The position numbers were made by a program, and so were the translations under genes. A stretch of DNA of 22,701 nt from a virus, in the IMG/VR virus record IMGVR_UViG_3300046413_001407, positions 1-22,701 of that record; one strand, written 5' to 3'. Below are positions 9,109-22,142 of the stretch, one piece after another. Position 1 is the first letter of the stretch. Every line of letters begins with the position of its first letter. The notes under the pieces were generated by a model. That model made no database searches, was not told the origin of the DNA, and saw nothing but the letters and a program-made list of their open reading frames with translations.

Positions 9109-9115
9109 TGTCAAC
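9109..9115 (-). promoter_or_regulatory. GTTGACA box before tail-tube gene
   Basis: GTTGACA lies on the minus strand with 14 bases to the ATG at 9094. It follows directly after the TAG of the upstream gene. No Shine-Dalgarno sequence lies between box and start. Confidence 0.6.
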
Positions 9116-9856
9116 CTAACAAATTTCCGTTATTCCAATCGTACAATCAAATACATCTCCAAAGCTCTGATCCTCTGCTTTGGCTGATAGTTGATTTATA
9201 TATAAACCTGATATTTGTATTTGCCTTCTTGCTAAAATATATCGATCCCTCAATGGTGTTCTATTGAAATTACATAATAGATATCCATCTTTAGTTTTTG
9301 GCTCAAAAGTATAGTGAGAACCTAAGACTACAAAATCCTTATGATCCGGTGAATTTAATAATGGGCCATTAATTTCCGCTGAGGCATAGATACCCTCCCT
9401 CATTTCTTTCGCCAAAAGGACGGGGTCTTCATTATATATTTTTATTGTTTTTGAAACCAGTAAGCTTTTAAGTTTATCGTAATGCTTATTAATTACGTCA
9501 GGAGTAATGCTATATCCATACAATTCATCCCTACGTAAGTAACGATTAAACTCATCCTCTACTTTGTTCGGTATCAACATTAGGGCATCTTCCATCTTGG
9601 ATATATATCCCCCATGTTCCTGACTATCAGCCTCATCTATATGAGAAACAAACACAACTTTTACATTGCATAAGTAGGCTCTGGGTCTCATTCCACCAGT
9701 TAAGGGCTTAGCTTCTTCGCAGATGACTGCGCCAAAGGGAGTCTCCCTGGCTTCATTTCCATAGTTGGGATAAAACCTAAGTCCTACTTTATTTGTGAGT
9801 ATATCACAAAGAGCAAATTCTAGTTCGCGCTTTGGTTCATGGTAAACCTCAATCAT
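9116..9856 (-). CDS. Unrecognised head-tail or tail-completion protein
   Basis: The protein is 246 residues from ATG at 9856, which forms an ATGA overlap with the stop of the FII-like gene. The open frame reaches 9889, but that extension lies inside the neighbour. The N-terminus MIEVYHEPKRELEF leads into a mixed alpha/beta domain with FGAVICEEAKP and MRPRAYLCNVKVVFVSHIDEAD. A charged helical middle and a C-terminal beta-rich part follow (residues 165-246). In lambda the genes between FII and the tube protein V are Z and U (tail completion and terminator), so a tail-terminator or completion role is a positional inference. The N-terminal part has the look of a U-type domain; the C-terminal part has no counterpart I know. 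Confidence 0.6.
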   Translation of the reverse strand: MIEVYHEPKRELEFALCDILTNKVGLRFYPNYGNEARETPFGAVICEEAKPLTGGMRPRAYLCNVKVVFVSHIDEADSQEHGGYISKMEDALMLIPNKVEDEFNRYLRRDELYGYSITPDVINKHYDKLKSLLVSKTIKIYNEDPVLLAKEMREGIYASAEINGPLLNSPDHKDFVVLGSHYTFEPKTKDGYLLCNFNRTPLRDRYILARRQIQISGLYINQLSAKAEDQSFGDVFDCTIGITEIC

Positions 9857-10191
9857 AATGGCACAGTAGCTGTGAGTAGACCACCGCAATTAAGTGTGAT
9901 TAAATCAGTTCCATCATCATCAACTCTACCAACTCTCATTCTTATAGTTTCTCCATTTTGAGTCATAGTCAGCTTAGACCCTTTACTAATATTATTCTCA
10001 ACAAAATCATCTCTCTTGATAAATATTGTAGTATCATTATCCTCTGCTTTTCCCCCAACTATTCGTCTATCAAACTTACTGACTGGGTCTGCTATTACTT
10101 TTATTGGTGTTGAGCCGAAGTACGCAATTTCCCCCATTTGATCCATAGCTGGATTAGATGATAAATCCATAGCCTGATTAAAGATACTCAT
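9853..10191 (-). CDS. gpFII-like head-tail connector
   Basis: The start ATG at 10191 (MSIFNQAMDL) lies 14 bases after a GTTGACA box. The frame is open to 10227, but that would place the start upstream of the box. The 112-residue product matches the pattern of lambda gpFII (117 residues): a short N-terminal helix, a GSTPIKVIADPVSKFD strand region, TTIFIKRDDFVEN, then KGSKLTM and VGRVDDDGTDLITL, comparable with gpFII's LFVRTDEV, RGDTLTI and DRVSPDDGG segments. gpFII-type proteins plug the head after packaging and provide the tail attachment site. Position after the capsid gene agrees. It ends in ATGA with the next gene. Confidence 0.7.
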   Translation of the reverse strand: MSIFNQAMDLSSNPAMDQMGEIAYFGSTPIKVIADPVSKFDRRIVGGKAEDNDTTIFIKRDDFVENNISKGSKLTMTQNGETIRMRVGRVDDDGTDLITLNCGGLLTATVPL

Positions 10192-10205
10192 ATAATAGAG
10201 ATATG

Positions 10206-10212
10206 TGTCAAC
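10206..10212 (-). promoter_or_regulatory. GTTGACA box before FII-like gene
   Basis: GTTGACA on the minus strand, 14 bases before ATG 10191. It lies in the roughly 80-base gap after the capsid gene, just after a T-run. It decides the FII start. Confidence 0.6.
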
Positions 10213-10263
10213 AAAAAGGGCCGTCATAAGACGACCCCATTTGAGTGGTGTGGAAAGTTTGTT

Positions 10264-10273
10264 ACCCGCGGGT
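10264..10273. repeat. Ten-base GC palindrome at capsid gene stop
   Basis: ACCCGCGGGT is a perfect palindrome that includes the last bases of the capsid stop codon region. It sits inside a looser hairpin (GGAAGT on one side, ACTTTCC on the other) and is GC-rich in an AT-rich gap. It could stabilise the capsid mRNA end or be a weak pause site; chance cannot be excluded. Confidence 0.35.
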
Positions 10274-11316
10274 TACTTCCAAGATATGGAGTTCTTCGAA
10301 CCTGCAGCAGCAAAGTTAGCTAAACAACCAGCATTTTGATTGATAACTTTTTCTGCAGTATGATGGCGAACGCGAACCATGTCTCCACGACGTGGTTCAG
10401 AGCGGTAAGTTTCAGTTGTGAATAATCCAGTACCATCCTTTTGCCAAACAAAAGTACGACCTGCACCACCACCAGAAACTTCTCCTCCAGTAACATCGCC
10501 AACCCAGATAGTATCATTATTCCAAATTGGTTTAAGAACAGCACCAGATGCATTTCGCTTGGAAGTGTCATGATGCTGAGTAGCGATATAAACATTTTGA
10601 AGTCTAAAGTGCTTTGCGATGTCTTGTTCGTTAACAAGCTTGTATCCAACTCCGCTACCAAGTGAACCAAAAAGGAAAGTGTTTAGCTTGCCTGTACGAC
10701 GAATATGGTTCCAGGTATTCTGACCAATAACCATAGTATTTGGAATTTCACCTCTCTTGGTGCATTCCTTCATCATATCCATGAATAAAATAGCATAGTC
10801 AGAAGTATCTAAAGCTGCAGTTGTTCCAACGGCATTGGTAGTATGATAAGGAGAAGTAGTTCCTGTTGCATCAATATTGTTAGTCCAAATGTTGGTTTGA
10901 ACACCTGTATCAACTCCGCATCCCATTGCATCAAAAACTCTTTTTTCATAATCAAGTTTCATTGTACGCATGATGAGCTTAGAAGTAAGAACTTCTACAT
11001 CAAAGAACTTTGCATAGTCACGAACAATGACATCGTCAATTCGCTCTTCCATACCACGATCAAGTGCTTCGTAGGTATCAGTATCAAACTTACGAGTAGT
11101 TTCGTTATAAGTACCAGTTGGGCCTCTGAGAGTAGAGTCTGCTTTTAATAGCTCTCCTCCATCTCCAATTTTAATCTTCGGGAAGATACCAGCTCTGGCA
11201 TCCACGGGAAGGACTGGAAAAATTTTCTCAGCAAAGAGTAATTTATCAGTGCGCGCTGCTTCTTCTACAAAGGCATTTAGATCGTGCCTGATTACTGCGT
11301 GTGTATTTCTGTACAT
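10273..11316 (-). CDS. Major capsid protein, lambda gpE type
   Basis: At 347 residues this is close to lambda gpE (341). It forms the icosahedral shell in the HK97 fold. Typical landmarks are the N-terminal arm with FPVLPVDARAGIFPKI near residue 33, a RGMEERIDD segment near 92 followed by the long spine-helix region, TMVIGQNTWNHIRRTGKL near 197 (the A-domain motif of the E family), and the C-terminal WQKDGTGLFTTETYRSEPRRGDMVRV region followed by a conserved hydrophilic end. It directly follows the decoration-protein gene, as in lambda D-E. No Shine-Dalgarno sequence or GTTGACA box precedes the ATG at 11316, only an A/T-rich leader of about 20 bases. Identification is firm. Confidence 0.93.
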   Translation of the reverse strand: MYRNTHAVIRHDLNAFVEEAARTDKLLFAEKIFPVLPVDARAGIFPKIKIGDGGELLKADSTLRGPTGTYNETTRKFDTDTYEALDRGMEERIDDVIVRDYAKFFDVEVLTSKLIMRTMKLDYEKRVFDAMGCGVDTGVQTNIWTNNIDATGTTSPYHTTNAVGTTAALDTSDYAILFMDMMKECTKRGEIPNTMVIGQNTWNHIRRTGKLNTFLFGSLGSGVGYKLVNEQDIAKHFRLQNVYIATQHHDTSKRNASGAVLKPIWNNDTIWVGDVTGGEVSGGGAGRTFVWQKDGTGLFTTETYRSEPRRGDMVRVRHHTAEKVINQNAGCLANFAAAGSKNSISWK

Positions 11317-11336
11317 AGCTTAAATTATTTAATTGA

Positions 11337-11705
11337 TTAAAGTACTACTCTTACGAACTCGTCTACAGCAGCAGAGGCTTCGAGCGCGGTTCCAAATACG
11401 GTTCCCGTAGCTCCATTACCTGCTGCGACTCCTCCAGCGATTGCCTTTACGTTTCCACCAACTGATATTGAGTGTGTTGTGTTACCGCCTGTTTTCACCA
11501 AAACAATACCACCAGCACTTAAGAGTTGAATATCAACGGGACGATCACTTTCAGCCTGACTAACATCTTGTAAAGCGACACCAATTACATTCGCAACAGT
11601 GACGAGTTTCTTTGCGGTTCCATCAGTATGTATTTCAACGAGTTGTCCCATCTCAATGACTTCGCTGCCCTTTACTGGTAAAGAAATTACTCCATTATGA
11701 TTCAT
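11337..11705 (-). CDS. Capsid decoration protein, DUF2190/gpD-like
   Basis: This 122-residue protein sits between protease/scaffold and major capsid protein, the slot of lambda gpD. It is rich in Gly, Ala, Val and Thr and beta-stranded: VKGSEVIEMGQLVEIHTDGTAKKL, then VIGVALQDV near residue 41, a GGIVLVKTGGN segment near 66, and a C-terminal EASAAVDEFVRVVL. This is the layout of DUF2190-type small phage proteins, which bind the outside of the shell. An AAGGA Shine-Dalgarno sequence lies nine bases before ATG 11705, a clear contrast with genes that use the GTTGACA box. The assignment to decoration is by family look and position. Confidence 0.75.
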   Translation of the reverse strand: MNHNGVISLPVKGSEVIEMGQLVEIHTDGTAKKLVTVANVIGVALQDVSQAESDRPVDIQLLSAGGIVLVKTGGNTTHSISVGGNVKAIAGGVAAGNGATGTVFGTALEASAAVDEFVRVVL

Positions 11706-11717
11706 ATTATAATTCCT

Positions 11718-12341
11718 TTAGTTTCCGTAAACACCTGAAGAATGTAACCATTCTGTATGTGCACGAGGGTTATCATTAACAGCACTGCGAATTGCTTCGT
11801 TTGGATCATTTGAATCCAAGGAAGCTTGTTGAATGCTAAATTGAAAAGAACCTTCTTCAGATGGTGTTCCAAAAAGATGTTCAACTGCAGATGATGGTAA
11901 AGCTTCAACTCCACCCATTTCAATCGCATCTTGAAGGTTTTCATTTTCAAACTTAAGCTCTTGGTTTTCAGCCATGAGCTCTTCAAATTTCATTTCAACC
12001 TCGTCCATAATAGCTTGCTCAGAAATTTCTTGCTCAGCGGCTAATGCGCCTTCTGCTTTGGATTCAAGGTAAGTCAACGCATCATTGATTGACTCATACT
12101 GTTCAGGCTCGCCTTCATACGCTGGTTCAAGATCAGCATCTTCATACTCACCTTCATCTTCATATTCAGCTTCTTCATAGGAATCATCCTCATAAGAATC
12201 TTCTTCATAACTATCATCAGATAAGTTATCAGAAATTGCTTCCTCGAGATCACCTTGAAAATTCTCAAGACCAGAAAGCCTATCATTAATCGCGCCAAGG
12301 AGCTCGGCTACATCCTGTTGGTCAGTATCGGGTTCGTTCAT
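11718..12341 (-). CDS. Putative nested scaffold protein from internal start
   Basis: Met165 of the protease gene (ATG 12341, MNEPDTDQQD) lies exactly 14 bases after GTTGACA, the same box and distance seen at true gene starts nearby. It lies just past the end of the protease domain and before the acidic and coiled-coil part. A product from here would be 207 residues, strongly acidic: a free scaffold in the same frame. Lambda makes Nu3 scaffold in this way from within gene C. The 30 bases around this ATG resemble those around ATG 22121 closely (both begin AAAGTTGACA and have the same spacing). The nested product is an inference. Confidence 0.5.
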   Translation of the reverse strand: MNEPDTDQQDVAELLGAINDRLSGLENFQGDLEEAISDNLSDDSYEEDSYEDDSYEEAEYEDEGEYEDADLEPAYEGEPEQYESINDALTYLESKAEGALAAEQEISEQAIMDEVEMKFEELMAENQELKFENENLQDAIEMGGVEALPSSAVEHLFGTPSEEGSFQFSIQQASLDSNDPNEAIRSAVNDNPRAHTEWLHSSGVYGN

Positions 12342-12833
12342 ATTATAATTATTGTTGTCAACTTTGGTTTCAAACATTCCATCTGGATTGGCTGCTGGAT
12401 CAGCAACTAAGTCCACCGAAATTATTCGTTTGCATCTTGCTAGAGTTTTTCCACCTTTTGCTTCTTTATCGCCTTGGAACGCAACAGAAAGTCCTATCTG
12501 TCCTGGCATCGTAGCTATCTGCTCCATTGTTTGAGCATAATCTTTGTGGTGTTTTAATAAATTTAAATCGCCCTTCAGTTTGTTTCCCTGAATGCTAAAA
12601 TTGTTTATATATCCAAATACAGCCTCCACCCCACTGCGATGATTAAGCTTTGCTTTAATCCCAGGAGAAGAAGCGGCTTCCATAGATGTCTTTAATTGTG
12701 CGAGAGTAACATCATCCACTTCAAGGCCATGACCACGAGCATCACCCATTGTGATTAGTGAGACATCTTTAATCACTCCTTCATCTGAATCTATTCTTCC
12801 ATCTATAGCATTAAACTGTAATACATCTTCCAT
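11718..12833 (-). CDS. Prohead protease fused to acidic scaffold
   Basis: This 371-residue protein has two parts. Residues 1-155 look like the HK97-type (U35/S78) prohead serine protease: KLNHRSG gives the likely catalytic His65, GLSVAF the likely Ser116, and SVDLVADPAANPDG the usual closing block. Residues 165-250 are strongly acidic, with repeated S-Y-E-E/D units. About 250-310 is a Glu-rich coiled coil, and the last 60 residues form a mixed tail (SFQFSIQQ, HTEWLHSSG). A protease with scaffold in one reading frame recalls lambda C/Nu3. The protease cleaves scaffold and itself before packaging. ATG 12833 lies 15 bases after a GTTGACA box. Domain assignment of the first part is good; the scaffold role of the second is inferred. 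Confidence 0.85.
   Translation of the reverse strand: MEDVLQFNAIDGRIDSDEGVIKDVSLITMGDARGHGLEVDDVTLAQLKTSMEAASSPGIKAKLNHRSGVEAVFGYINNFSIQGNKLKGDLNLLKHHKDYAQTMEQIATMPGQIGLSVAFQGDKEAKGGKTLARCKRIISVDLVADPAANPDGMFETKVDNNNYNMNEPDTDQQDVAELLGAINDRLSGLENFQGDLEEAISDNLSDDSYEEDSYEDDSYEEAEYEDEGEYEDADLEPAYEGEPEQYESINDALTYLESKAEGALAAEQEISEQAIMDEVEMKFEELMAENQELKFENENLQDAIEMGGVEALPSSAVEHLFGTPSEEGSFQFSIQQASLDSNDPNEAIRSAVNDNPRAHTEWLHSSGVYGN
12356..12362 (-). promoter_or_regulatory. GTTGACA box inside the protease gene
   Basis: GTTGACA on the minus strand, 14 bases before the internal ATG at 12341. In the protease frame it reads V-D-N, so it is coding sequence as well. Bases next to the ATG read TATAAT. Confidence 0.55.
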
Positions 12834-12848
12834 TTATATATTTTATTA

Positions 12849-12855
12849 TGTCAAC
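12849..12855 (-). promoter_or_regulatory. GTTGACA box before protease gene
   Basis: GTTGACA on the minus strand, 15 bases before ATG 12833; this is the only copy with 15 rather than 14. Its TGA is also the stop codon of the upstream 165-residue gene. Confidence 0.55.
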
Positions 12856-13348
12856 GAAGGTACTTCGCATAAGGGTTGTTAATGATAGCCCACTTTGGCA
12901 TTGCTGCTTTCGATCCTTTGAATACTTTTTGCAAAACTTTTGATACACCTGACCTTTTAGTCTTTAATCGCTCACCACCCCTTCCATCTTTTATGGTTAT
13001 TGGGTTTCCTTTTTTATCTAGTACTAATTTTCCACGCTCAGTTGGAAACCTTTTACTCGTACTGTCGTATTCTGATCGCACTACTCCGTGCTTCTTTGCC
13101 TGTTTTCTTTCCCAGTCCAATCGAGCTTTACGCCTCTTTCCGCTCACATCTTGCGGATCTAATATTTTCTCCTGGGGATTCTGTGTTGGATACTTTTCTT
13201 TCACGCTTTTATTATATTTAACACGTGCCTTATCGTACCCCGCAAGTATTTGATGATCTCTAGCCGCTTTATAGTAAGCTCCTGATAAAGCAGTTCCTCC
13301 AGCTATAGCACCAGCTTTCGCTAACCTGTCGTTTTTCTTTTCACTCAT
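12851..13348 (-). CDS. Basic head-module protein with Gly/Ala segment
   Basis: This 165-residue protein is not recognised. It is rich in Lys and Arg throughout. A short Gly/Ala segment near residues 12-26 (AGAIAGGTALSGAYY) follows a charged N-terminus. The rest is hydrophilic, with KRRKARLDWERKQAKKHG near the middle and a C-terminal half that ends PKWAIINNPYAKYLR. It lies directly before the protease and belongs to a run of five basic genes between portal and protease. ATG 13348 overlaps the upstream stop as ATGA and has AGGAAG about eight bases upstream. It may be an internal head protein that binds DNA or is ejected with it; that is inferred from charge, the membrane-like segment and position. 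Confidence 0.65.
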   Translation of the reverse strand: MSEKKNDRLAKAGAIAGGTALSGAYYKAARDHQILAGYDKARVKYNKSVKEKYPTQNPQEKILDPQDVSGKRRKARLDWERKQAKKHGVVRSEYDSTSKRFPTERGKLVLDKKGNPITIKDGRGGERLKTKRSGVSKVLQKVFKGSKAAMPKWAIINNPYAKYLR

Positions 13349-13575
13349 CGTCTTCTTCCTAGTAGCCCTGCTCCCATAAGTAATCCCCCAAGTATCATTT
13401 GAAGTTTACCTTCTTTTTCTAAACGGTCTTTTTTTCGTCCACCCACTTTTCTCCTTATACGAGATAGGGAGTTTCTTCTGACTATAACATTTCTGCCATA
13501 TATCTCAGATAGGTCTGGACTAACCACCCAACCCGGCGGAGGCATCCTCCTAGAAGGCCAGGTGCGAACTTCCAT
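13345..13575 (-). CDS. Small basic protein with C-terminal membrane-like segment
   Basis: This 76-residue protein is of no recognised family. Residues 1-57 are basic and hydrophilic, with a Trp/Pro-rich start (WPSRRMPPPGW) and an arginine run (RRNSLSRIRRKVGGRKK). Residues 58-73 (LQMILGGLLMGAGLLG) form one Gly-rich hydrophobic segment, closed by RRR. That plan, basic body plus glycine-zipper-like helix plus basic end, recurs in neighbouring genes. The start ATG directly abuts the TAA of the 59-residue gene, and the stop overlaps the next ATG, so all are translated as one coupled set. Confidence 0.6.
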   Translation of the reverse strand: MEVRTWPSRRMPPPGWVVSPDLSEIYGRNVIVRRNSLSRIRRKVGGRKKDRLEKEGKLQMILGGLLMGAGLLGRRR

Positions 13576-13755
13576 TTATCTAAACCTAGCAGGAGTTCTT
13601 GAAGCAAAAACTACATCATTAGGCTTTGAATTGCCTGGATTACCTTGAGGTTTTTGTTCAGCTTGGCGTTCAGCTTGGCGTTTAGCTTGGCGTTCAGCTT
13701 GGCGTTCAGCTTGGCGTTTAGCTTGTTCAGTTTGTTTATTATTGTCTTCGCTCAT
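13576..13755 (-). CDS. 59-residue protein with Q-A-E/K-R repeats
   Basis: This short gene has ATG 13755 overlapping the TAA of the upstream gene (TAATG), and its own TAA is directly followed by the next ATG, so it fits the operon without a gap. After MSEDNNKQTE come six four-residue units, QAKR or QAER with a last QAEQ (residues 11-34). These would form a highly charged single helix with a heptad-free repeat. The C-terminal part is polar (NPGNSKPNDVVFASRTPARFR). It is too short for common length cut-offs but lies exactly between two coupled genes, which is strong support. No family is recognised. Confidence 0.65.
   Translation of the reverse strand: MSEDNNKQTEQAKRQAERQAERQAKRQAERQAEQKPQGNPGNSKPNDVVFASRTPARFR
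13654..13725. repeat. Twelve-base tandem repeat coding Q-A-E/K-R
   Basis: On the minus strand six copies of CAAGCT(G/A)AACGC run in tandem, the last ending in GAACAA. Units differ only at the Glu/Lys codon and at the end. Near-identical DNA suggests recent expansion by slippage. Confidence 0.85.
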
Positions 13756-14807
13756 TAATTATCTAGTATTCTATTTTTAGGTGGTTTTGGTAATATCTTA
13801 TCTACTGCTGGCTTTTTTGGCTTTAATCTTCTTCGCGCGGCACTTTTATAAGCTTCAGTTAATGCCTTCTGGCTCTTATATTTTTTTCCGAGCACAGTGG
13901 CGATGAGTCCAAGTCCTGCTGTTGCTGTAGCTCCTCCAGCCAACATCTTGTCTCTTGAGCTTTTCCTTTCGTGCCAGTACTTACCCCTTCGATCTCTTTT
14001 CTTGCCTGAAGTATGAACCCTTACTGATGAACCCGTTGGGCGGGACATGCGCCAGCCTTTCTTTTTCATCTCGTCTTCAATGGCAAACTCCATAGTGCTT
14101 GTATTGATTTCAGCAAATTTCTTTAATAGCTTTTTACCTTTTTTTGTTTTTGATAAATAAGCTGCTCCTCCCAAAGCCGCTGTAATTGCGGTAGCTGCAG
14201 CTGCATCTTTAAAATGTTGCTTCTCGTAAAATCTTTTGCGTCTCTTGTTTCTTCTCTCTCCCTTAGCTAAATCCCTTAAGTCTCTAACCGCCTCAACGCC
14301 CTTGCGTCCAGTTTTAACATTAGATCGCACTTTTCTATTTACTCTTCTAGCATCATCAAGAAGCTCAAGTGGGTCTCTTTCAAACTCTACCAAACCCTTG
14401 GCGATATTTTTTGCATTCTTTTTTTCATGCACTCGCTGAGTGATTGGATTTTCAAATAAGCGAATTTTTCCTCCAGGTAATTTATTTAAAGCTTTTCTCC
14501 ATTTTGGATATGATCTTTTTTCCCTCACTAAAATTTTAGATGCCGCTCTTTTACTTCTTTGTCTAGCAACCCTTCGTTTTGCTTTTGCTTTTGGTGATCT
14601 ATCTAAAGGAGAATATTGAAAACTCTCATCAATCTTTTTTACCAAAGGAGTTGTCTTTTTAGCCAATTCAGCAATAGGCTTGACCTGCTTGCGTAATTGA
14701 TAGCCGCCCGCAATAGCTCCTGCGGCACCTAGTCCCCCAAGTGCGCTTAAGCCCAATCCAGCCTTACGAATTGTTTTCTCTTCTTCCTTTTCTTTTTTCG
14801 ATTCCAT
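13755..14807 (-). CDS. Basic head-module protein with three Gly/Ala segments
   Basis: This 350-residue protein is not recognised. It is very rich in Lys and Arg. Three short hydrophobic Gly/Ala segments lie at about 16-36 (GLGLSALGGLGAAGAIAGGY), 201-218 (DAAAATAITAALGGAAYL) and 288-307 (KMLAGGATATAGLGLIATVL), each followed by a basic cluster. Between them are DNA-binding-like stretches such as PKAKAKRRVARQRSKR. Three short motifs with Glu-Phe or Gln-Tyr also stand out: SFQYSP (62-66), LVEFERD (139-145) and TMEFAIED (238-245), with relatives in other head genes. An AGGAT lies close before ATG 14807, which overlaps the 653-residue gene by 44 bases. An ejected or DNA-condensing internal protein is inferred; a structural filler is possible. 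Confidence 0.65.
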   Translation of the reverse strand: MESKKEKEEEKTIRKAGLGLSALGGLGAAGAIAGGYQLRKQVKPIAELAKKTTPLVKKIDESFQYSPLDRSPKAKAKRRVARQRSKRAASKILVREKRSYPKWRKALNKLPGGKIRLFENPITQRVHEKKNAKNIAKGLVEFERDPLELLDDARRVNRKVRSNVKTGRKGVEAVRDLRDLAKGERRNKRRKRFYEKQHFKDAAAATAITAALGGAAYLSKTKKGKKLLKKFAEINTSTMEFAIEDEMKKKGWRMSRPTGSSVRVHTSGKKRDRRGKYWHERKSSRDKMLAGGATATAGLGLIATVLGKKYKSQKALTEAYKSAARRRLKPKKPAVDKILPKPPKNRILDN

Positions 14808-16725: not shown

Positions 16726-18223
16726 TTTCTTGTGGTTCTGATCCTTGTTGCTGGAAAGCTTGAATCATTTGATGGGCATTTTCTAACCTTTTTGATAAAA
16801 GGCTCATAGGTATGCCAAATTTATTTGCCACCTCTTCAAGATACTTCACTTCCTTTGCGATCTTCTCTGCCTCTTCTTCAAAATCAAGCCCCATTTCACC
16901 AAAAACCGTCTCGTGAGTTTTTAGCCCTGCATCCATCATGCTTATATTGGCTTGTACTTCATGACCAAGATCAGCAGTAATTTGTGAGTTAAACTGCCAT
17001 CTTGCTTTCTGATAATTCATACTTACGGGTAGTTGCCCGCGAGCAATAGCCATGCTTATCACTTTGTTCTTAATCGGATCAAGGACTTGCTCAGTCAATA
17101 GGTCTTGATGCCTTTTAAATGATCGCTGTGCTTGTTGAACCTCAAGCCTAGCTGTGGCTCCACCAAACGAACTCATGTCCCAAACAAATGCATAAGGTAA
17201 GTTTAGTCCATTAGCCATTTCCCTTACTAGGGTATTTACAAAACCATTGAATGTGGGACTTGGGCGAGACTGATTGGGGAACATAGAAATACCATCCCCT
17301 GGCTGAAGTCTGACAATTTTCCCAGGCTCAATTTTTTCTAATTTCTTCCCATCTTTCGTTAAGGCCCCAGGCTTAGTTGTAGTCCACTTATCTGGGCCTT
17401 GATCATTTTTCGTTATAACCCCTGCATGACTAGCTCCCCACTTTACAGCAAGCTTCTCCATTTTGTATAACTCATGTATATCTTTAGCGTGAGGAATAGA
17501 TGTCTCAAAGCAAGTAATTCCTCTATACTGATCTACTCGCAAGGGGTCTATGTAGTGGATGAAATTTTGGGCAGGTACTTCTGTTGGGTCTTTGTACATA
17601 CCATGTAAGGTTCTTTTAAATACTCTATAGCTTACTGGCTGTCCAAAATCATTTATAGTAATTCCGCCGATGTAGTTTTCATCGTTGGTCTTTTTTCCAT
17701 ATTCAGATGGATTGCCTAATCTATCAGCCTCTATAGCTTGCAACTTTACTTCCTCGCCTTTCGTTACAAGGGCGAATCCAGCATCTCCATCTCGCCTCAT
17801 TCCAATATGCATCATCTGGACTAAATGCCTAAAAGGATACCTTCCGGTAATATCACAATTTTTAGTCCAGTTTTTCCAGTATTCTTCGTAGGCTTGATCT
17901 ACAGCAGGATCGCCTGTTTGGGATTGATACCTAATTGATCCGCACACATACATCGCTTCTTTTAGGAGTACGCTTTTAAAAAAAGAAAAATTTTGTGATA
18001 AATGCCTAGCTTCCCACATCATCTTAATCCGATCTCTCTGATTCATTAAGGATTCAGAAGCCGCGGTTGTGAAAGACGAAGCCATCGTGCTTTGGTTTGG
18101 CAAGTTCTTTGCCGCATCATAAGCGAACTCTAGTTTATCTTTGTAGTATTTTCTTTGTAGACCCACTTCAGGGCTTACAAAAGAAATTACTCGATCTAGG
18201 ATTGTTTGTTTATTGTTCATCAT
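16706..18223 (-). CDS. Portal protein, lambda gpB family
   Basis: Portals form the dodecameric ring at the vertex through which the terminase pumps DNA. The 505-residue product shows the lambda-type signature: YWKNWTKNCDITGRYPF followed by MRRDGDAGFALV (N-terminal third), then the EADRL turn, VSYRVFKR, FIHYIDPLRVDQYRGI, and late in the protein ANGLNLPYAFVWDMSSFGGATAR and LEVQQAQRSFKRHQDLL. The C-terminus is a Glu/Gln-rich helix. The frame is open to a TTG at 18235, but ATG 18223 or the adjacent 18220 is the likely start. No strong Shine-Dalgarno sequence precedes it. An inverted repeat lies just upstream. The family assignment is firm. Confidence 0.93.
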   Translation of the reverse strand: MMNNKQTILDRVISFVSPEVGLQRKYYKDKLEFAYDAAKNLPNQSTMASSFTTAASESLMNQRDRIKMMWEARHLSQNFSFFKSVLLKEAMYVCGSIRYQSQTGDPAVDQAYEEYWKNWTKNCDITGRYPFRHLVQMMHIGMRRDGDAGFALVTKGEEVKLQAIEADRLGNPSEYGKKTNDENYIGGITINDFGQPVSYRVFKRTLHGMYKDPTEVPAQNFIHYIDPLRVDQYRGITCFETSIPHAKDIHELYKMEKLAVKWGASHAGVITKNDQGPDKWTTTKPGALTKDGKKLEKIEPGKIVRLQPGDGISMFPNQSRPSPTFNGFVNTLVREMANGLNLPYAFVWDMSSFGGATARLEVQQAQRSFKRHQDLLTEQVLDPIKNKVISMAIARGQLPVSMNYQKARWQFNSQITADLGHEVQANISMMDAGLKTHETVFGEMGLDFEEEAEKIAKEVKYLEEVANKFGIPMSLLSKRLENAHQMIQAFQQQGSEPQENAQGPQ

Positions 18224-18256
18224 ATAGCCAGGCAATTATAATTGTGGAAATAATAA

Positions 18257-18274
18257 TAATGTTAAATAACATTA
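18257..18274. repeat. AT-rich inverted repeat between gpW and portal
   Basis: TAATGTTA and TAACATTA are perfect inverted arms separated by AA. They lie in the only 50-base gap between the gpW-like gene and the portal. Too AT-rich for a strong hairpin, the repeat resembles an operator for a dimeric protein; the nearby HTH gene makes that worth a look. Confidence 0.4.
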
Positions 18275-18280
18275 GTAAGG

Positions 18281-18562
18281 TCATCCAGACATATTAGTAT
18301 TATATAGTTCGCCATCAAGCCCATTTTCACGGAAGTCAGTGTATGTGCTTTCTAGGTAATCCCTGCCGGAACTTTCTCTTTTAATTTCAGATAATGCTCT
18401 GAGTCTTTCCTCCACGCTCGTTATGCTTCTCTGATAGCTTTTACCACCAACTGATTGAGCTAGATATAAATTTTTAGTCTCAAGCATAAGTGATTTCCTT
18501 TCGTCTATTAGCTCTTGACTTGTGTAGTCACGATAAATAACTTTCCAATTGGCAACGCTCAT
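18281..18562 (-). CDS. gpW-like head-tail connector
   Basis: This is 93 residues from ATG 18562 (MSVANWKVIYRDYT), exactly 14 bases after a GTTGACA box. A five-residue longer frame from 18577 would start over the opposite-strand gene and is less likely. The middle (SQELIDERKSLMLETKNLYL, then VGGKSYQRSITSVEERLRALSEI) follows the gpW plan of two helices around a short beta hairpin, with the S-V-x-x-L-type second helix. It stands before the portal as W does before B in lambda. gpW is 68 residues, so about 25 extra residues, mostly C-terminal, are present. gpW-type proteins complete the head and stabilise packaged DNA. Confidence 0.65.
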   Translation of the reverse strand: MSVANWKVIYRDYTSQELIDERKSLMLETKNLYLAQSVGGKSYQRSITSVEERLRALSEIKRESSGRDYLESTYTDFRENGLDGELYNTNMSG

Positions 18563-18575
18563 ATAAAATAATATC

Positions 18576-18998
18576 ATGTCAACATTAGTAGAGGGGTCTG
18601 TGGACTTTGACTATGAGTCAATTGATTTTGACTATGATCGTCTTGACGCTGAAGAAATTATAGAAAATATGCCCCCTGTGCTTCAGGAGTACTTTAAGGA
18701 GAAGATCAGAAAAGAAATCCAAGATGCCCTAACGCAAGTCATTGCTATTATATATGATTCTAATAATTATAAACTAAAGCTTGCTACTATTGTATGTTCG
18801 TTTGGTCTCCCTCTTTTTCTTGGAAAATCCATGAGCGAGATAGCAAAAATGCACGGAGTTACTAGACAGGCTTTGTCTAAGTCAGTTAAGCAATTCCAGA
18901 AAAACTTTAACTTGCCCCCGACAAGAGGGCAGAAATCACTCGCAGCCTGCGAGAAATATAAACAAGCCCAAATAGAAAGATACAAGAATGTCCATTGA
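18576..18998 (+). CDS. HTH DNA-binding protein, opposite strand
   Basis: This 140-residue protein is transcribed against the surrounding genes. A helix-turn-helix sits at about 84-107 (KSMSEIAKMHGVTRQALSKSVKQF), a sigma-70 region 4 or MerR-like reading of the promoter type. A PPTRGQKS basic tail follows and a helical middle (residues 31-70) precedes it. The N-terminus has an acidic repeat (FDYESIDFDYD). Possible roles are a regulator or, since it lies next to the large terminase, a terminase small subunit (which has an N-terminal HTH); the HTH being C-terminal speaks against the second. ATG 18576 begins next to the gpW start, so any promoter for this gene must lie inside the gpW coding region. 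Confidence 0.75.
   Translation: MSTLVEGSVDFDYESIDFDYDRLDAEEIIENMPPVLQEYFKEKIRKEIQDALTQVIAIIYDSNNYKLKLATIVCSFGLPLFLGKSMSEIAKMHGVTRQALSKSVKQFQKNFNLPPTRGQKSLAACEKYKQAQIERYKNVH
18577..18583 (-). promoter_or_regulatory. GTTGACA box before gpW, overlapping HTH gene start
   Basis: GTTGACA on the minus strand, 14 bases before ATG 18562. The same bases on the plus strand fall in the first three codons (ATG TCA ACA) of the HTH gene, so box and opposite start codon occupy one site. Confidence 0.6.
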
Positions 18999-19494
18999 AG
19001 CAACTATAACCTTAGCCCCTGAAGATTGCGCACTGCAAGTAAATGAAGCTCACCGACGTGGCTTGGAGTCTATGGTCGGCTCACTTAAGCATTTCTCTGA
19101 GGCTGGACTCCACCTAAAGAAGGCTCAAAATACTGTTGAGAACTTCACAGCATGGCTTAAGGATAATATACCATTTTCAAGAAAGACCGCATATCAGTAT
19201 ATACAACTACATGATAAGGTTTCCGCGGGTCTTGTGAATCTGGATTCTGGGGAGTTTACTTCTATAAGGCAGTGCCTCGGAATCGATCATGATGGCGAAA
19301 AGAGTACTTATCAAGAGGACAGAAAAACCGACCCAAGATTTGAAAGCATACCAGGGCTTTGTGCTAAAATTGAACAGAATTTCAAAACAGCTGCGCGAGC
19401 GAAACCGTTGGAGACATGGAGCGAGGATGAGAAGCGAGTTCTCGCAAATGCGCTTCAACCTATTGATGATATATATCTTGACCTTCTAAAATGA
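18988..19494 (+). CDS. DUF3102-like protein
   Basis: This 168-residue protein overlaps the HTH gene by 11 bases. Residues about 18-78 (EAHRRGLESMVGSLKHFSEA, then LKKAQNTVENFTAWLKDNIP and SRKTAYQYIQLHDKV) fit the DUF3102 pattern: a helical repeat with 'G-x-x-L-x-x-A-K', a W-x-x-W/L core and a closing S-x-x-T-A-x-x-Y helix, common in phages and plasmids and often likened to an HTH-like fold. The C-terminal half is a charged, poorly characterised region. A DNA-binding or regulatory role is usual for such proteins but not proved. The stop overlaps the next ATG as ATGA. Confidence 0.7.
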   Translation: MSIEATITLAPEDCALQVNEAHRRGLESMVGSLKHFSEAGLHLKKAQNTVENFTAWLKDNIPFSRKTAYQYIQLHDKVSAGLVNLDSGEFTSIRQCLGIDHDGEKSTYQEDRKTDPRFESIPGLCAKIEQNFKTAARAKPLETWSEDEKRVLANALQPIDDIYLDLLK

Positions 19495-19571
19495 AAATAG
19501 AAGTATCAGATTTAATAACTCTATTTATAGCCCTTAGTCTTTTAGTAGGGGTTCTTTTATATATACTATAA
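19491..19571 (+). CDS. 26-residue single-pass membrane peptide
   Basis: This very short gene has ATG 19491 overlapping the TGA of the DUF3102-like gene as ATGA, the usual sign of coupled translation. After a short acidic head (MKIEVSD) the rest is one hydrophobic helix (LITLFIALSLLVGVLLYIL). It is the last gene before the shared hairpin. Small membrane peptides of this type occur as exclusion, toxin or lysis helpers; sequence alone does not choose. Its length and lack of family keep confidence modest. Confidence 0.5.
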   Translation: MKIEVSDLITLFIALSLLVGVLLYIL

Positions 19572-19574
19572 AAG

Positions 19575-19598
19575 AGTAGTGGGGCTTTAGCCACTACT
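19575..19598. terminator. Hairpin between convergent genes
   Basis: AGTAGTGG and CCACTACT form an eight-base-pair stem with an eight-base loop, in the 44-base gap between the plus-strand cassette (ends 19571) and the terminase stop (19616). On the minus strand a CTCTTTTA run follows the stem directly; on the plus strand T-runs are weaker. A bidirectional terminator, stronger for terminase mRNA, is likely. Confidence 0.65.
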
Positions 19599-19615
19599 AT
19601 TATAGGAGTTTTGGC

Positions 19616-21340
19616 TTACGTTAAGCCAATCATTCCTGTGACTAAGCCACCCACCAATATCATACACTCACAGTCCCAAAAGTGATTGTCTTTTCTTGGC
19701 TTATTTACCCACTTATAAGTTACCTTGCCATAGTTATCGACCATCTCTTCTCTATGCTCTGCTGACATTTGATTTACATAATCACGTGTCACATTTTTCG
19801 GTAGCTGCCAGCTAGGGCCGAGTCCCTTTTTATATTCAGCAAGTAGGTCTTTTATGGATGGATTTGAGTAAACAAAAAGTCTAATTGGTCTGATTTGACC
19901 CTGCGCTGATGTTCCTATTGCTGGGTCAACTAAGGTATCCTTGTATGGTTGCCTCACTCCCTCAACAACAAAATATTGATAATCATCGCCCTTCATGGGT
20001 TTCCACATATATCCTGATTTAGTAACTTCGTTATATACGGATGTTGCCATATATCCAGAGTCAATAACGACATCATCATTATCCACACCTAATTCGGTTA
20101 TCAATTCACGAAGAGATGAGAAGTCTGCTATTTTTCCATAATCAAAAAGACGAGATGTCCCATGCTTTCCGAATTGCCTGCAGACGTAATATAGGCAATC
20201 TTTTTGAACATCTACTGCCAAAAACTTACGCTCTCCATCATTCCAGGTTTCTTTAAGCTTATACTCGCCCTGTCTTTCTTCTGACCAGGACATAGTATTC
20301 CCATACTTAAGTCTATCTTCCCAAGGTTGACCTAAACTTTCTGTTATAAATGCTTTAAGCGGTTGAGGGTCTCCCCAGCTAAGAGCTTTCTTTGCATTTA
20401 TAAACTCTTCCACTAGCTCTCTCCAGCGAACCCAAGGGGGTAATATCGCACTCCATGTGTAGCTCCTTCTTGAACTAGGGGCATTTGTATTTTGAGGAAT
20501 CCACTTACCTTCAGTCAGCCTACGCCTTTCTAATGGCGTATCATATGTCTTATGTTCACAGTGCGGACATTCCATTCTTATTGTGTCCGCTAAAGCATCA
20601 AAATCGTACAGGTCAGGTTTTGTTTTTGTATTAGTATCCCACCTCATGTTCTCCCAATCTAACCCGTGGCTTTCTTTGCAACTTGGACATTCAACATGCC
20701 AGGTTCTTTGATCTCCACGTAAGTACTCTTGGTGAACTGAATCATGTTCAGTATCAGGTGTTGATATAATGACTTGTCGCGCATTCCAGAAGGTTCTAGT
20801 TCTTTTTAAAACCATCGGGAGAGCACCAGGAGGCCAGTTACGAACCTCATCAAGCAACAACCACCTTCTTGGCTTGGACTGTAGTTTAGAAGGAGCATTA
20901 GAGCCCACAACCTCAAGTGTCATATGCGGGAAATAAATTTCTTTTGATTTAGCGAGTTCTCTACTTACAGGCATATGTCTATTGACCTTTTCGCAAGCTT
21001 TTAGCGAAGGCATAAGCCTTTCTTTTGCAAACTTCAATGCCTCATCTTCGTTGGAAGTTACCCACATGCACGGCCCTGGGTCTTCGGCTATGAGCCAGCA
21101 AAGAGACGCGATCATCGTTTCGGTCTTTGCACTTTGAGCTGAGCACATAATAGAAAGAGTCCTTACTCTATTATCAGCAAAGGTTTCCATAAACTCTCTC
21201 ACCCAAGGCGAGTTTGATGAACGCCACTTGCCCGGGAACGGAGAAACAGCTACTTGGAAATTATCTTCAGCCCATTGCCAGGGAGGTCTGCGATCTGCGG
21301 GTCGCCACGCCTCGCTCGCGGTCTGTTCTACTATATTCAG
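19616..21340 (-). CDS. Terminase large subunit, GpA type
   Basis: This is the ATPase-nuclease that cuts and packages DNA through the portal. Counted from GTG 21202: a Walker A-like SAQSAKT at 21-27 (Ala replaces the usual Gly), Walker B LLLDE at 114-118, a zinc-type pair CPSC (171-174) and CPHC (211-214), and nuclease acidic sites at about Asp330 (FLAVDVQKD), Asp380 (VVIDSGY) and a late DCECMILV. Homologous sequence continues upstream in frame: WRPADRRPPWQWAEDN and SPFPGKWRSSNSPW are typical of the family. The only start-like codon before the preceding in-frame stop (21355) is CTG 21340, overlapping the upstream stop as CTGA. I give that start; 574 residues result. A frameshift or sequence error is the other option. 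Family is firm, start is not. Confidence 0.88.
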   Translation of the reverse strand: MNIVEQTASEAWRPADRRPPWQWAEDNFQVAVSPFPGKWRSSNSPWVREFMETFADNRVRTLSIMCSAQSAKTETMIASLCWLIAEDPGPCMWVTSNEDEALKFAKERLMPSLKACEKVNRHMPVSRELAKSKEIYFPHMTLEVVGSNAPSKLQSKPRRWLLLDEVRNWPPGALPMVLKRTRTFWNARQVIISTPDTEHDSVHQEYLRGDQRTWHVECPSCKESHGLDWENMRWDTNTKTKPDLYDFDALADTIRMECPHCEHKTYDTPLERRRLTEGKWIPQNTNAPSSRRSYTWSAILPPWVRWRELVEEFINAKKALSWGDPQPLKAFITESLGQPWEDRLKYGNTMSWSEERQGEYKLKETWNDGERKFLAVDVQKDCLYYVCRQFGKHGTSRLFDYGKIADFSSLRELITELGVDNDDVVIDSGYMATSVYNEVTKSGYMWKPMKGDDYQYFVVEGVRQPYKDTLVDPAIGTSAQGQIRPIRLFVYSNPSIKDLLAEYKKGLGPSWQLPKNVTRDYVNQMSAEHREEMVDNYGKVTYKWVNKPRKDNHFWDCECMILVGGLVTGMIGLT

Positions 21341-21552
21341 GAGTTCTGTATGCTATCCTTTAAGGACTTTTTAGCCTGAACAACTTCTCTATAGTATAAA
21401 TTTAAAAAATTAATAAAATCTTGAAACGACCCATTTTCTGTATCGAAAGTTGGGATATTCATATTTCTGTCTAAGTTATGCGCTTCTACTGCTGAGTTTA
21501 CCTCCGCAATATCAACGGTGAACTTATTTCCACTCAAATTTACACCATTCAT
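21337..21552 (-). CDS. 71-residue protein before terminase
   Basis: This short, unrecognised protein is joined to the upstream gene by ATGA and to the terminase by CTGA. The sequence is mildly acidic with a mixed N-terminal half (GNKFTVDIAEVNSAVEAHNL) and a helical C-terminal half (DFINFLNLYYREVVQAKKSL). Position just before the large subunit is where the small terminase subunit (Nu1) lies in lambda, but 71 residues and no HTH make that a weak guess. It may simply couple translation into the terminase. Confidence 0.55.
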   Translation of the reverse strand: MNGVNLSGNKFTVDIAEVNSAVEAHNLDRNMNIPTFDTENGSFQDFINFLNLYYREVVQAKKSLKDSIQNS

Positions 21553-22121
21553 TTTTTACTTTTTCTACCAGCGGCATACGATCCGCCCATTGCTGCTCCT
21601 GCTCCTGCAACCGCACCAACAATTTTTGCTCTTCTTGAGCTAAGCAATGCTTTGATTTTAGCTTTTTTGCTTGGTGAAGCTTTATCATAAACATGTGCTG
21701 GAATAGGAATCATACCAAACTCCATCACATCTTCGCTTTGCTCTTCAAATTTTAATTTCTTAAGAAGACCGCCGACTTTTTTACCAAGTCCACTTGAGCG
21801 GACTTTACCAGCTTGCTTGCCAACATACTGACCAGCCTTGCTTCCTGAAATTTTTGCCTTGTCACCTCTCATTACATTCCCCATGCGAGTTTTTAGAGGT
21901 TGATTTGGGCCCATACCTTTATTTCTTGCTCTATATGCAACGCTTCCTGCATATGCTGCACCGCCTGCTGCTGCTGTGCCTAAAGCTCCTGCTCCAATTC
22001 CTTTGTTTTTCTTGTCAGGAGAGTATTCAAATTCTATACTATTAGCAAGCCTTTCCCCACGGGAAAGTATAACTTCATCAAGGGCTTCATCAAGCGCAAT
22101 AATTCTTTCAGCAATATTCAT
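21549..22121 (-). CDS. Basic protein with two Gly/Ala segments and Glu-Phe motifs
   Basis: This 190-residue protein opens with an acidic amphipathic stretch (ALDEALDEVILSRGERL), then SIEFEYSPDKKNKG (28-41). It continues with a Gly/Ala-rich hydrophobic segment at about 41-63 (GIGAGALGTAAAGGAAYAGS) and a long basic middle. VMEFGMIPIPA (132-142) follows, then a second Gly/Ala segment at 166-184 (AKIVGAVAGAGAAMGGSYAA) that ends KSKK. The same plan, basic body with glycine-zipper-like helices and short Glu-Phe motifs, is seen in the genes between portal and protease. ATG 22121 is 14 bases after a GTTGACA box. An internal or ejected head protein is inferred; the acidic start could be a capsid-targeting or cleavage segment. 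Confidence 0.65.
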   Translation of the reverse strand: MNIAERIIALDEALDEVILSRGERLANSIEFEYSPDKKNKGIGAGALGTAAAGGAAYAGSVAYRARNKGMGPNQPLKTRMGNVMRGDKAKISGSKAGQYVGKQAGKVRSSGLGKKVGGLLKKLKFEEQSEDVMEFGMIPIPAHVYDKASPSKKAKIKALLSSRRAKIVGAVAGAGAAMGGSYAAGRKSKK

Positions 22122-22135
22122 ATTAATAAAGATTA

Positions 22136-22142
22136 TGTCAAC
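22136..22142 (-). promoter_or_regulatory. GTTGACA box before 190-residue gene
   Basis: GTTGACA on the minus strand, 14 bases before ATG 22121. It follows two bases after the upstream TAA. The 30 bases around it closely match the internal site at 12341. Confidence 0.6.

Follow-up and report, generated by a model that had tools for sequence, protein, structure and literature searches.

The window analysed here is the entire virus record IMGVR_UViG_3300046413_001407 (22,701 nucleotides), in which the seven-base word GTTGACA (the box) precedes start codons at a near-fixed distance. To judge from sequence comparison, the box and a helix-turn-helix (HTH) protein encoded by the same phage are likely to be a phage-specific, start-associated regulatory site and its reader, tying a short word to a candidate reader protein across box-carrying phages of 40% to 66% GC. 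Binding of the box by the HTH protein appears probable, and we give roughly even chances to the fuller proposal that the box, so read, controls the gene downstream, most likely as the core of a late promoter giving leaderless mRNAs.

Spacing of the box in the window and its relatives

GTTGACA occurs six times in the window, always on the minus strand and never on the plus strand, and a recount returned every copy where the initial annotation, made from the letters alone, had placed it. By count alone this is weak evidence, six copies of a 7-mer being only mildly unusual: dinucleotide shuffles had a mean of 1.89 for both strands together and 3 of 100 reached six, making the 1.4 per strand first expected a little high (1.89/2, about 0.95). 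The spacing, not the copy number, is the strong part of the observation. The spacer between box and ATG is 14 bases in five cases and 15 in one, exactly as first described, and GTTGACA-N12..17-ATG, observed six times, is expected 0.20 times and reached six in 0 of 100 shuffles, in agreement with the earlier view that such spacing is not expected by chance. Two further statements of that annotation also hold, namely that no common sequence lies upstream of the six boxes and that the word is no Shine-Dalgarno match (0 of 6 starts are preceded by a Shine-Dalgarno-like word). The boxes, with the open reading frames (ORFs) and protein lengths in amino acids (aa) that go with them, are as follows; G2r is a relative whose TerL is 81% identical to that of the window.

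22136..22142, minus strand: box 1, GTTGACA, N14 to ATG 22121 of a 190-aa protein (MNIAERIIALDE...)
18577..18583, minus strand: box 2, GTTGACA, N14 to ATG 18562 of the gpW-like gene
12849..12855, minus strand: box 3, GTTGACA, N15 to ATG 12833 of the putative head protease gene; contains the stop codon of the ORF ahead of that gene; kept in G2r
12356..12362, minus strand: box 4, GTTGACA, N14 to the in-frame internal ATG 12341, putative scaffold start within the protease ORF
10206..10212, minus strand: box 5, GTTGACA, N14 to ATG 10191 of the FII-like gene
9109..9115, minus strand: box 6, GTTGACA, N14 to ATG 9094 of a tail-tube-like gene (135 aa); kept in G2r

A TerL search yielded seven contigs (G1-G7) of three lineages. 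G1 (49.7 kb) is the same virus as the window (99.94% over 21.7 kb); G2-G4, mutually the same virus at 99.9%, have a TerL 81% identical to the window's, and G5-G7, of about 51% GC, one that is 77-78% identical. GTTGACA is followed by ATG at N13-16 in 9/9 (G1), 7/8, 4/4, 5/5, 2/3, 2/3 and 2/2 occurrences, and the reversed-pattern control gave 0 in all seven contigs. The exceptions in G2 and G6 have a GTG at N14 instead; at site 1693, one of the seven in G2, a GTG at N15 is preferable, as the ATG there runs straight into a stop. Seven box genes of the window virus have a G2 counterpart, recognised by eye, of which six carry the exact box and one, the FII-like gene of box 5, the one-mismatch ATTGACA at N13.

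Corresponding starts keep the box over greater distances as well. Box 1 has an exact copy at the corresponding start in G2r, G6, G13, L227, L229 and L236, and the gpW-like start has a box in eight lineages of the W-group (the window and its relatives), window included, with a GTG at N13 in G14/G15. Boxes also precede, in seven lineages each, the gene for an 'ERIIALDE' protein and that for a cysteine-bearing protein (PFHNNPTF...), the latter with ATG or GTG at N14-N15 and at these sites:

L227 5427, L229 5357, L236 5087 (reverse-complement coordinates), G13 9900, G14 2020, G6 9487, G2r 1693: box ahead of the PFHNNPTF... gene

Identity between matching box sites of different lineages is 31-57% in the 14-base spacer and 20-75% over the 20 bases upstream; the sites were selected for carrying the box, so that identity of the box itself is there by selection. 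Random spacing elsewhere in the genome and absence from orthologous starts, either of which had been named as counting against the box, were both put to the test, and the outcome did not speak against it. The claim that the box resolves the starts of gpW and FII stands for the gpW-like gene, which has both box and ATG in seven further lineages, and less firmly for the FII-like gene, where the 81% relative has the one-mismatch box at N13.

Box 4 lies inside a gene. ORF 11718-12833 directly precedes the cement and capsid genes and contains ATG 12341 in frame, putatively the layout of a protease with a nested scaffold, for which lambda C/Nu3 is a parallel. Scaffold-like in-frame internal starts have a box at N14 in four lineages (the window, G2r, L230/L231 and L235), 164-187 codons into the open frame, and at N17 in G17/L238, 201 codons in; on recount the internal starts in the window, G2r, L230, L231, L235, G17 and L238 were all in frame, 164-201 codons in. 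Its presence at starts within an open frame makes the box a feature of the start and not of gene borders.

The place of the boxes supports the earlier suggestion of a late-expression signal. They lie among structural genes, and no exact box occurs in the replication blocks of two long genomes (25.2-41.2 kb of G1 and 33.4-48.7 kb of G2r); the limits of these blocks were set by hand, and the chance of finding no box is about 0.03 and about 0.06, respectively, by simple proportion.

A TerL profile search (best 80 of 84 loci, identity down to 26%) reached far relatives of 55-60% GC in which GTTGACA is almost confined to the late strand (late strand/other strand 10/0 in G11, 12/0 in G12 and 7/0 in G24), while several relatives nearer in TerL are without such a bias. 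Over 28 records GTTGACA-N12-16-ATG gave 41 matches vs 4 for the reversed control.

A helix-turn-helix protein that accompanies the box

The box appears to follow the HTH gene rather than closeness in TerL. Profile searches with the HTH family over 27 records found it in 17. Among 444 query ORFs from two genomes, it was the sole family present in 17/18 box-bearing and 0/7 box-less records (Fisher 1.7e-5, a value that overstates independence as the pairs W/G1, G14/G15 and G16/G17 are near-identical). The next-best family was present in 10/18 box-bearing records, and a DUF3102-like ORF in 9/18 box-bearing and 0/7 box-less ones. Two of the 27 records were left out of this comparison, L103 (a 7-kb fragment with one box and no HTH gene) and phage P8625, which has 4+1 boxes, a start at one of them and a weak HTH match (E 0.0012); G23 was scored box-less despite one box-start match, G30 is box-bearing without HTH on a 28.9-kb fragment, and the HTH match of G35 is very weak (E 0.01-0.02). 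TerL of the box-less records is 41-47% identical to the window's, and that of most far HTH-bearing records 26-34% (one 44%).

In a prospective test, the viral collection was searched with the HTH family alone. Eighty of 137 relatives were returned; 64 contigs were new, and the other 16 loci lay on contigs already found by TerL. GTTGACW-N13-16-RTG was present on the HTH strand of 51/64 new contigs and on the opposite strand of 3/64, and GTTGACW topped a ranking of 180 permuted hexamers, in which the runner-up scored 46 and the median was 6. Among 7-mers ahead of an N12-16 ATG in these contigs GTTGACT ranked first and GTTGACA seventh; the contigs share ancestry, and the unrelated TCAACGT, AGAGCTG and TTTCTGT were also among the top seven.

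Copies on the wrong strand appear to be avoided where the HTH gene is present. In 33 HTH-bearing records, hand-chosen (11 of the W-group, 7 far relatives and 15 of the 64 HTH-found contigs), GTTGACW occurred 173 times in sense vs 61 expected and 12 times in antisense vs 75 expected; in seven records lacking HTH the figures were 19 vs 23 and 13 vs 25.4. The order-2 Markov expectation is thus too high for HTH-less records too, and the contrast between the two sets has p 0.004.

The HTH gene and the other genes on which the argument draws are:

18576..18998, plus strand: HTH regulator, 140 aa, proposed reader of the box from its co-occurrence with it
18988..19494, plus strand: second plus-strand ORF, 168 aa, weak DUF3102 match; overlaps the end of the HTH gene
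18281..18562, minus strand: gpW-like gene, labelled by position and by the initial annotation; no family match
11718..12833, minus strand: putative head protease gene with nested scaffold start 12341, labelled by position; no family match

The HTH gene is divergent from the gpW-like gene at box 2, with the DUF3102-like ORF next. The reverse complement of box 2 forms the first codons (ATGTCAAC) of the HTH gene (window 18570-18584), and the HTH start codon lies within the reverse complement of the box in 12/12 W-group loci examined, where one word may serve two divergent genes. The HTH itself is at about residues 80-112 of 140, followed in the predicted model by a single helix.

Comparison of window proteins with PHROG surely assigned TerL (phrog_15, E 8e-93), the portal (phrog_21, E 1e-55) and the major capsid protein (phrog_1005, E 1e-25). 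The gpW, FII, protease, scaffold and tail tube candidates had zero family matches in the searches and are named by position. On the minus strand, at about 50-115 of the window, a collagen-like GDPGDPGDDGTDGTDGTDGG stretch lies near the open end of the long tail-region protein. In G1 the stretch 25.4-33.3 kb (L017 6360-14258) is taken up by a block of sulfotransferase, glycosyltransferase, FkbM methyltransferase and 2OG-oxygenase-like genes, and similar ones were seen by eye between terL and the HTH gene in G2r.

Three TerL relatives in the genome collection all lie in metagenome-assembled genomes (MAGs) of Verrucomicrobia (Pedosphaera, Akkermansiaceae and unclassified), and the hosts therefore probably belong to Verrucomicrobia, a MAG contig being no proof of host. 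In 59 genomes of this phylum GTTGACW-N13-16-ATG occurred 1243 times vs 953 for the reversed word (1.3-fold), which is not a codon-matched control. Eleven genomes exceeded the control more than 2.5-fold (e.g. 28 vs 2 and 47 vs 13). In the four of these that were inspected (G063, G087, G075 and G054) GTTGACA-N14-ATG was found 22 times vs 5 for the control; 19 of the 22 loci were readable, in 17 of which the box is inside a stop-to-stop ORF of at least 184 aa, and no HTH homologue was found in the 19. A host-wide start signal was rejected on the 1.3-fold excess and the location of inspected matches mostly within ORFs, and the same counts support the earlier description of the signal as phage-specific.

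Form of the signal and its possible action

Distances were surveyed in 88 HTH-bearing records, with similar sites collapsed and starts taken as those of ATG/GTG ORFs of at least 60 aa. Among 127 distinct GTTGACA sense sites an ORF start lay at 13, 14, 15 and 16 bases in 14, 38, 15 and 13 cases, compared with one at 12 and three at 17. A start at 13-16 followed 80/127 GTTGACA, 22/56 GTTGACT, 34/138 variants with another first base and 14/126 GTTGACC/G sites; therefore the core of the box is TTGACW with G preferred in front (GTTGACW, the first base mostly G). Collapsed counts at N12-16 were 21/51 for GTTGACA and 16/34 for GTTGACT, and from 0/5 up to 5/17 (ATTGACA) for thirteen other words (GTTGACC 3/24, GTTGACG 7/38, GATGACA 6/36 and GTGGACA 1/62). 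Two tandem boxes 18 bases apart precede one gene in L053 (14750-14790; MSETAAATPETP), the second at N13.

Bases past GTTGACW are not conserved except for G at +12 in GC-rich phages, where 44/60 sites have it, its position being fixed relative to the box and not relative to the ATG. A preference for T, A/T and T at +9 to +11, which in N14 sites is 4-6 bases ahead of the start, is seen in AT-rich but not in GC-rich sites. In the N14 class position -1 is a pyrimidine in 36/40 distinct sites (control 0.51-0.54; p 6e-7 vs 0.53), so the pyrimidine-purine step is present at the presumed start; it is a pyrimidine in 18/23 N13 sites (p 0.01) and a purine in 18/22 N15 sites.

Recognition of the box as DNA is suggested because antisense copies are avoided and the box is tied to a DNA-binding protein. 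That the box sets where expression begins is suggested by the sharp lower limit of 13 bases, by initiator-like surroundings that keep their place relative to the box, and by the internal starts. Together these points favour late promoters that act through the HTH protein and yield leaderless mRNAs. The box would be a one-sided site on DNA, recognised by the HTH protein that the phage itself encodes (window 18576-18998, plus strand), and would control the gene whose start codon sits 13-16 bases downstream. As the core of the phage late promoters, it would be the place to which the HTH protein brings host RNA polymerase; RNA would start at about the 14th-15th base past the box, on the start codon or 0-3 bases ahead of it. 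The resulting mRNAs would be leaderless, and one of them would begin inside the protease gene and make the scaffold. The parts of this proposal differ in strength. A positive effect, exerted at transcription initiation and producing leaderless mRNAs, is put at slightly under an even chance, and it is doubtful that the HTH protein alone reads a seven-base box while host polymerase starts at the codon with no -10 element.

Several observations weigh against this proposal. No start at 13-16 follows 47/127 distinct GTTGACA sites, the N16 class has no clear initiator or pyrimidine-purine step, and no -10-like columns were seen 17 bases past the box or 7-12 before the start in 104 distinct sites. 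Compared with other ORFs, box genes show no significant shortage of Shine-Dalgarno words, either in the W-group (7/37 vs 41/194) or in GC-rich phages (3/55 vs 131/914, p 0.07). The major capsid gene has no box, and at 40/41 far loci the HTH gene has none in its vicinity. The internal box doubles as codons for Val-Asp of the protease, and this protein constraint may contribute to its conservation there. The family matches of the HTH protein are weak and generic, including one to a repressor, and it has zero matches to sigma region 2, its 51 homologues (at E 0.01) included. Neither an RNA polymerase nor a sigma factor was found among 17 Pfam families of 37 further phage proteins or among the 25 of 41 PHROG families listed.

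Shine-Dalgarno words are rare in box genes and other ORFs alike, and the idea that box genes are singled out by missing them was rejected, as controls show no significant difference. Sigma70_r4 matched 1/51 HTH homologues and PHROG sigma factor families 8/51, all weakly. A fold search with the HTH model gave no PDB match under E 0.001, and HTH folds tie in it, which leaves structure undecided between sigma region 4 and a repressor.

The serious alternative, possible although we hold it unlikely, is a stoperator-like operator, at which the HTH protein would be a repressor that binds the box and halts late transcription, as the immunity repressor of cluster A mycobacteriophages does. Among 50,697 phage records the HTH protein matched only 27 Mycobacterium phages (64% over 25 aa, E 0.7), and the matching proteins are annotated as immunity or transcriptional repressors in the 20 of these that were listed. 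It also matched phrog_357, 'transcriptional repressor' (E 6e-4), and repressor structure 7r6r had the top identity among 50 chains listed (32% over 44 aa, Z 4.8). The overlap of the HTH start codon with the box in the 12 W-group loci is as in autoregulation. Mycobacterium phage Hammer has, in its first 50 kb, 19 copies of CTTGACA along transcription and one against it, and 9/19 sites lie 17-25 bases before an annotated start; the distance is loose there (10/19 outside this range), whereas here it is sharp. Furthermore, a roadblock requires no link with an internal scaffold start and no initiator-like surroundings, no integrase was found among the 17 Pfam families of 37 proteins, and there is no exact box in the replication block, the part that a lysogeny repressor would be expected to silence.

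The comparison with cluster A extends to the sites themselves. Stoperators as described for L5, TipsytheTRex and Hammer (PMC9283540, PMC6550527) resemble the box in being asymmetric, with a TTGACA core and many transcription-oriented copies, often near starts, and in both systems the site is paired with a phage HTH protein of similar HTH. Orientation along transcription is found here too, in the 173 sense vs 12 antisense copies of GTTGACW. The cluster A site is described as 13 bp long, with CCCACC as its second half and a looser start distance, whereas here the site is 7 bp, lies at a distance of 13-16 and lacks this second half. The cluster A repressor is described as having a second DNA-binding (Stoperator) domain past the HTH and a known role in repression and lysogeny; here there is no such domain. 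Homology to L5-type repressors amounts to the E 0.7 match over 25 aa, the phrog_357 match and the 7r6r match at Z 4.8, where HTH folds tie. Membership of the cluster A stoperator family is not claimed, as the 13-bp site and the second domain are lacking.

It is improbable that the box instead acts in leader RNA as a translation-start signal, read by the ribosome or an RNA-binding factor, as the initial annotation had entertained. The near-fixed start distance, the in-frame internal start and the tolerance of GTG starts would all suit such a signal. A purely mRNA-level signal does not explain the avoidance of antisense copies, however, and the partner that the box follows is a phage protein with a DNA-binding fold, as far as the model indicates; the host phylum is without the pattern at starts.

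TTGACA is the canonical -35 word. As the box contains it, an ordinary sigma-70 promoter, with the box as -35 hexamer and G in front, comes to mind; this is very unlikely, as the -10 hexamer would fall at codons 2-3, where none was seen and alignment columns reflect codon composition only, in agreement with the earlier remark that no -10 box stands 17 bases past the box. Equally slight is the chance that the HTH protein is the small terminase subunit, linked to the box by chance or shared ancestry: in 7/8 far records its gene shares the strand of TerL and precedes it by 2-10 kb (in G20 it is downstream), and 1/51 homologues matches a terminase small subunit family (E 0.008). In the W-group, however, the gene is found past TerL and on the other strand, recurrence ahead of gene starts is not expected of a packaging site, and the co-occurrence and the 64-contig prospective test stand against this reading.

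Comparison with other systems and meaning

Three further systems bear on the proposal of HTH-dependent late promoters. The start-associated sequences (SAS) of cluster K mycobacteriophages are described as short asymmetric words, mostly in one orientation and directly upstream of starts, like the box; they are a different word (GGGATAGGAGCCC) at a different distance, and the part of that account which treats them leaves their function open and names no cognate protein (PMC3203893). The late promoters of phage AR9 are reported to have a short bipartite consensus (AACA-N6-TA/G) and a fixed start site, and 13 of them are internal, inside ORFs, as is box 4. AR9 differs in using a phage multisubunit RNA polymerase and 5' leaders of at least 26 bases (PMC5312081), whereas here the start codon would adjoin the start site and no phage polymerase was found among the families scanned. 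Finally, in the verrucomicrobium Akkermansia muciniphila 10% of start sites are reported as leaderless vs 0.4% in E. coli, with the start site at the start codon and YR at -1/+1, like those proposed here; these are described as host promoters with ordinary -35 and -10 elements (PMC4782308), in which they differ. Leaderless mRNAs are thus usable by hosts of this phylum.

In the open-licence PMC literature no paper on the GTTGACA motif was found (searching GTTGACA with phage by title and abstract start), nor was one on a promoter motif in Verrucomicrobiota phages. The regulation of genes in Verrucomicrobiota phages seems to be little covered in print, and a gene-switch system of box and HTH protein seems not to have been described in them before.

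If the proposal is true, these phages could be recognised from sequence only, their start codons could be fixed, nested scaffold starts included, their late genes would become predictable and leaderless translation would be testable in a whole phage group. The likeness to cluster A stoperators raises the question of a common origin with the box/HTH system. On the bolder and less likely reading, with no -10 element, a single word used across many otherwise diverged Verrucomicrobiota phages would define the promoter, the end of the mRNA and the start of translation alike, within genes too.

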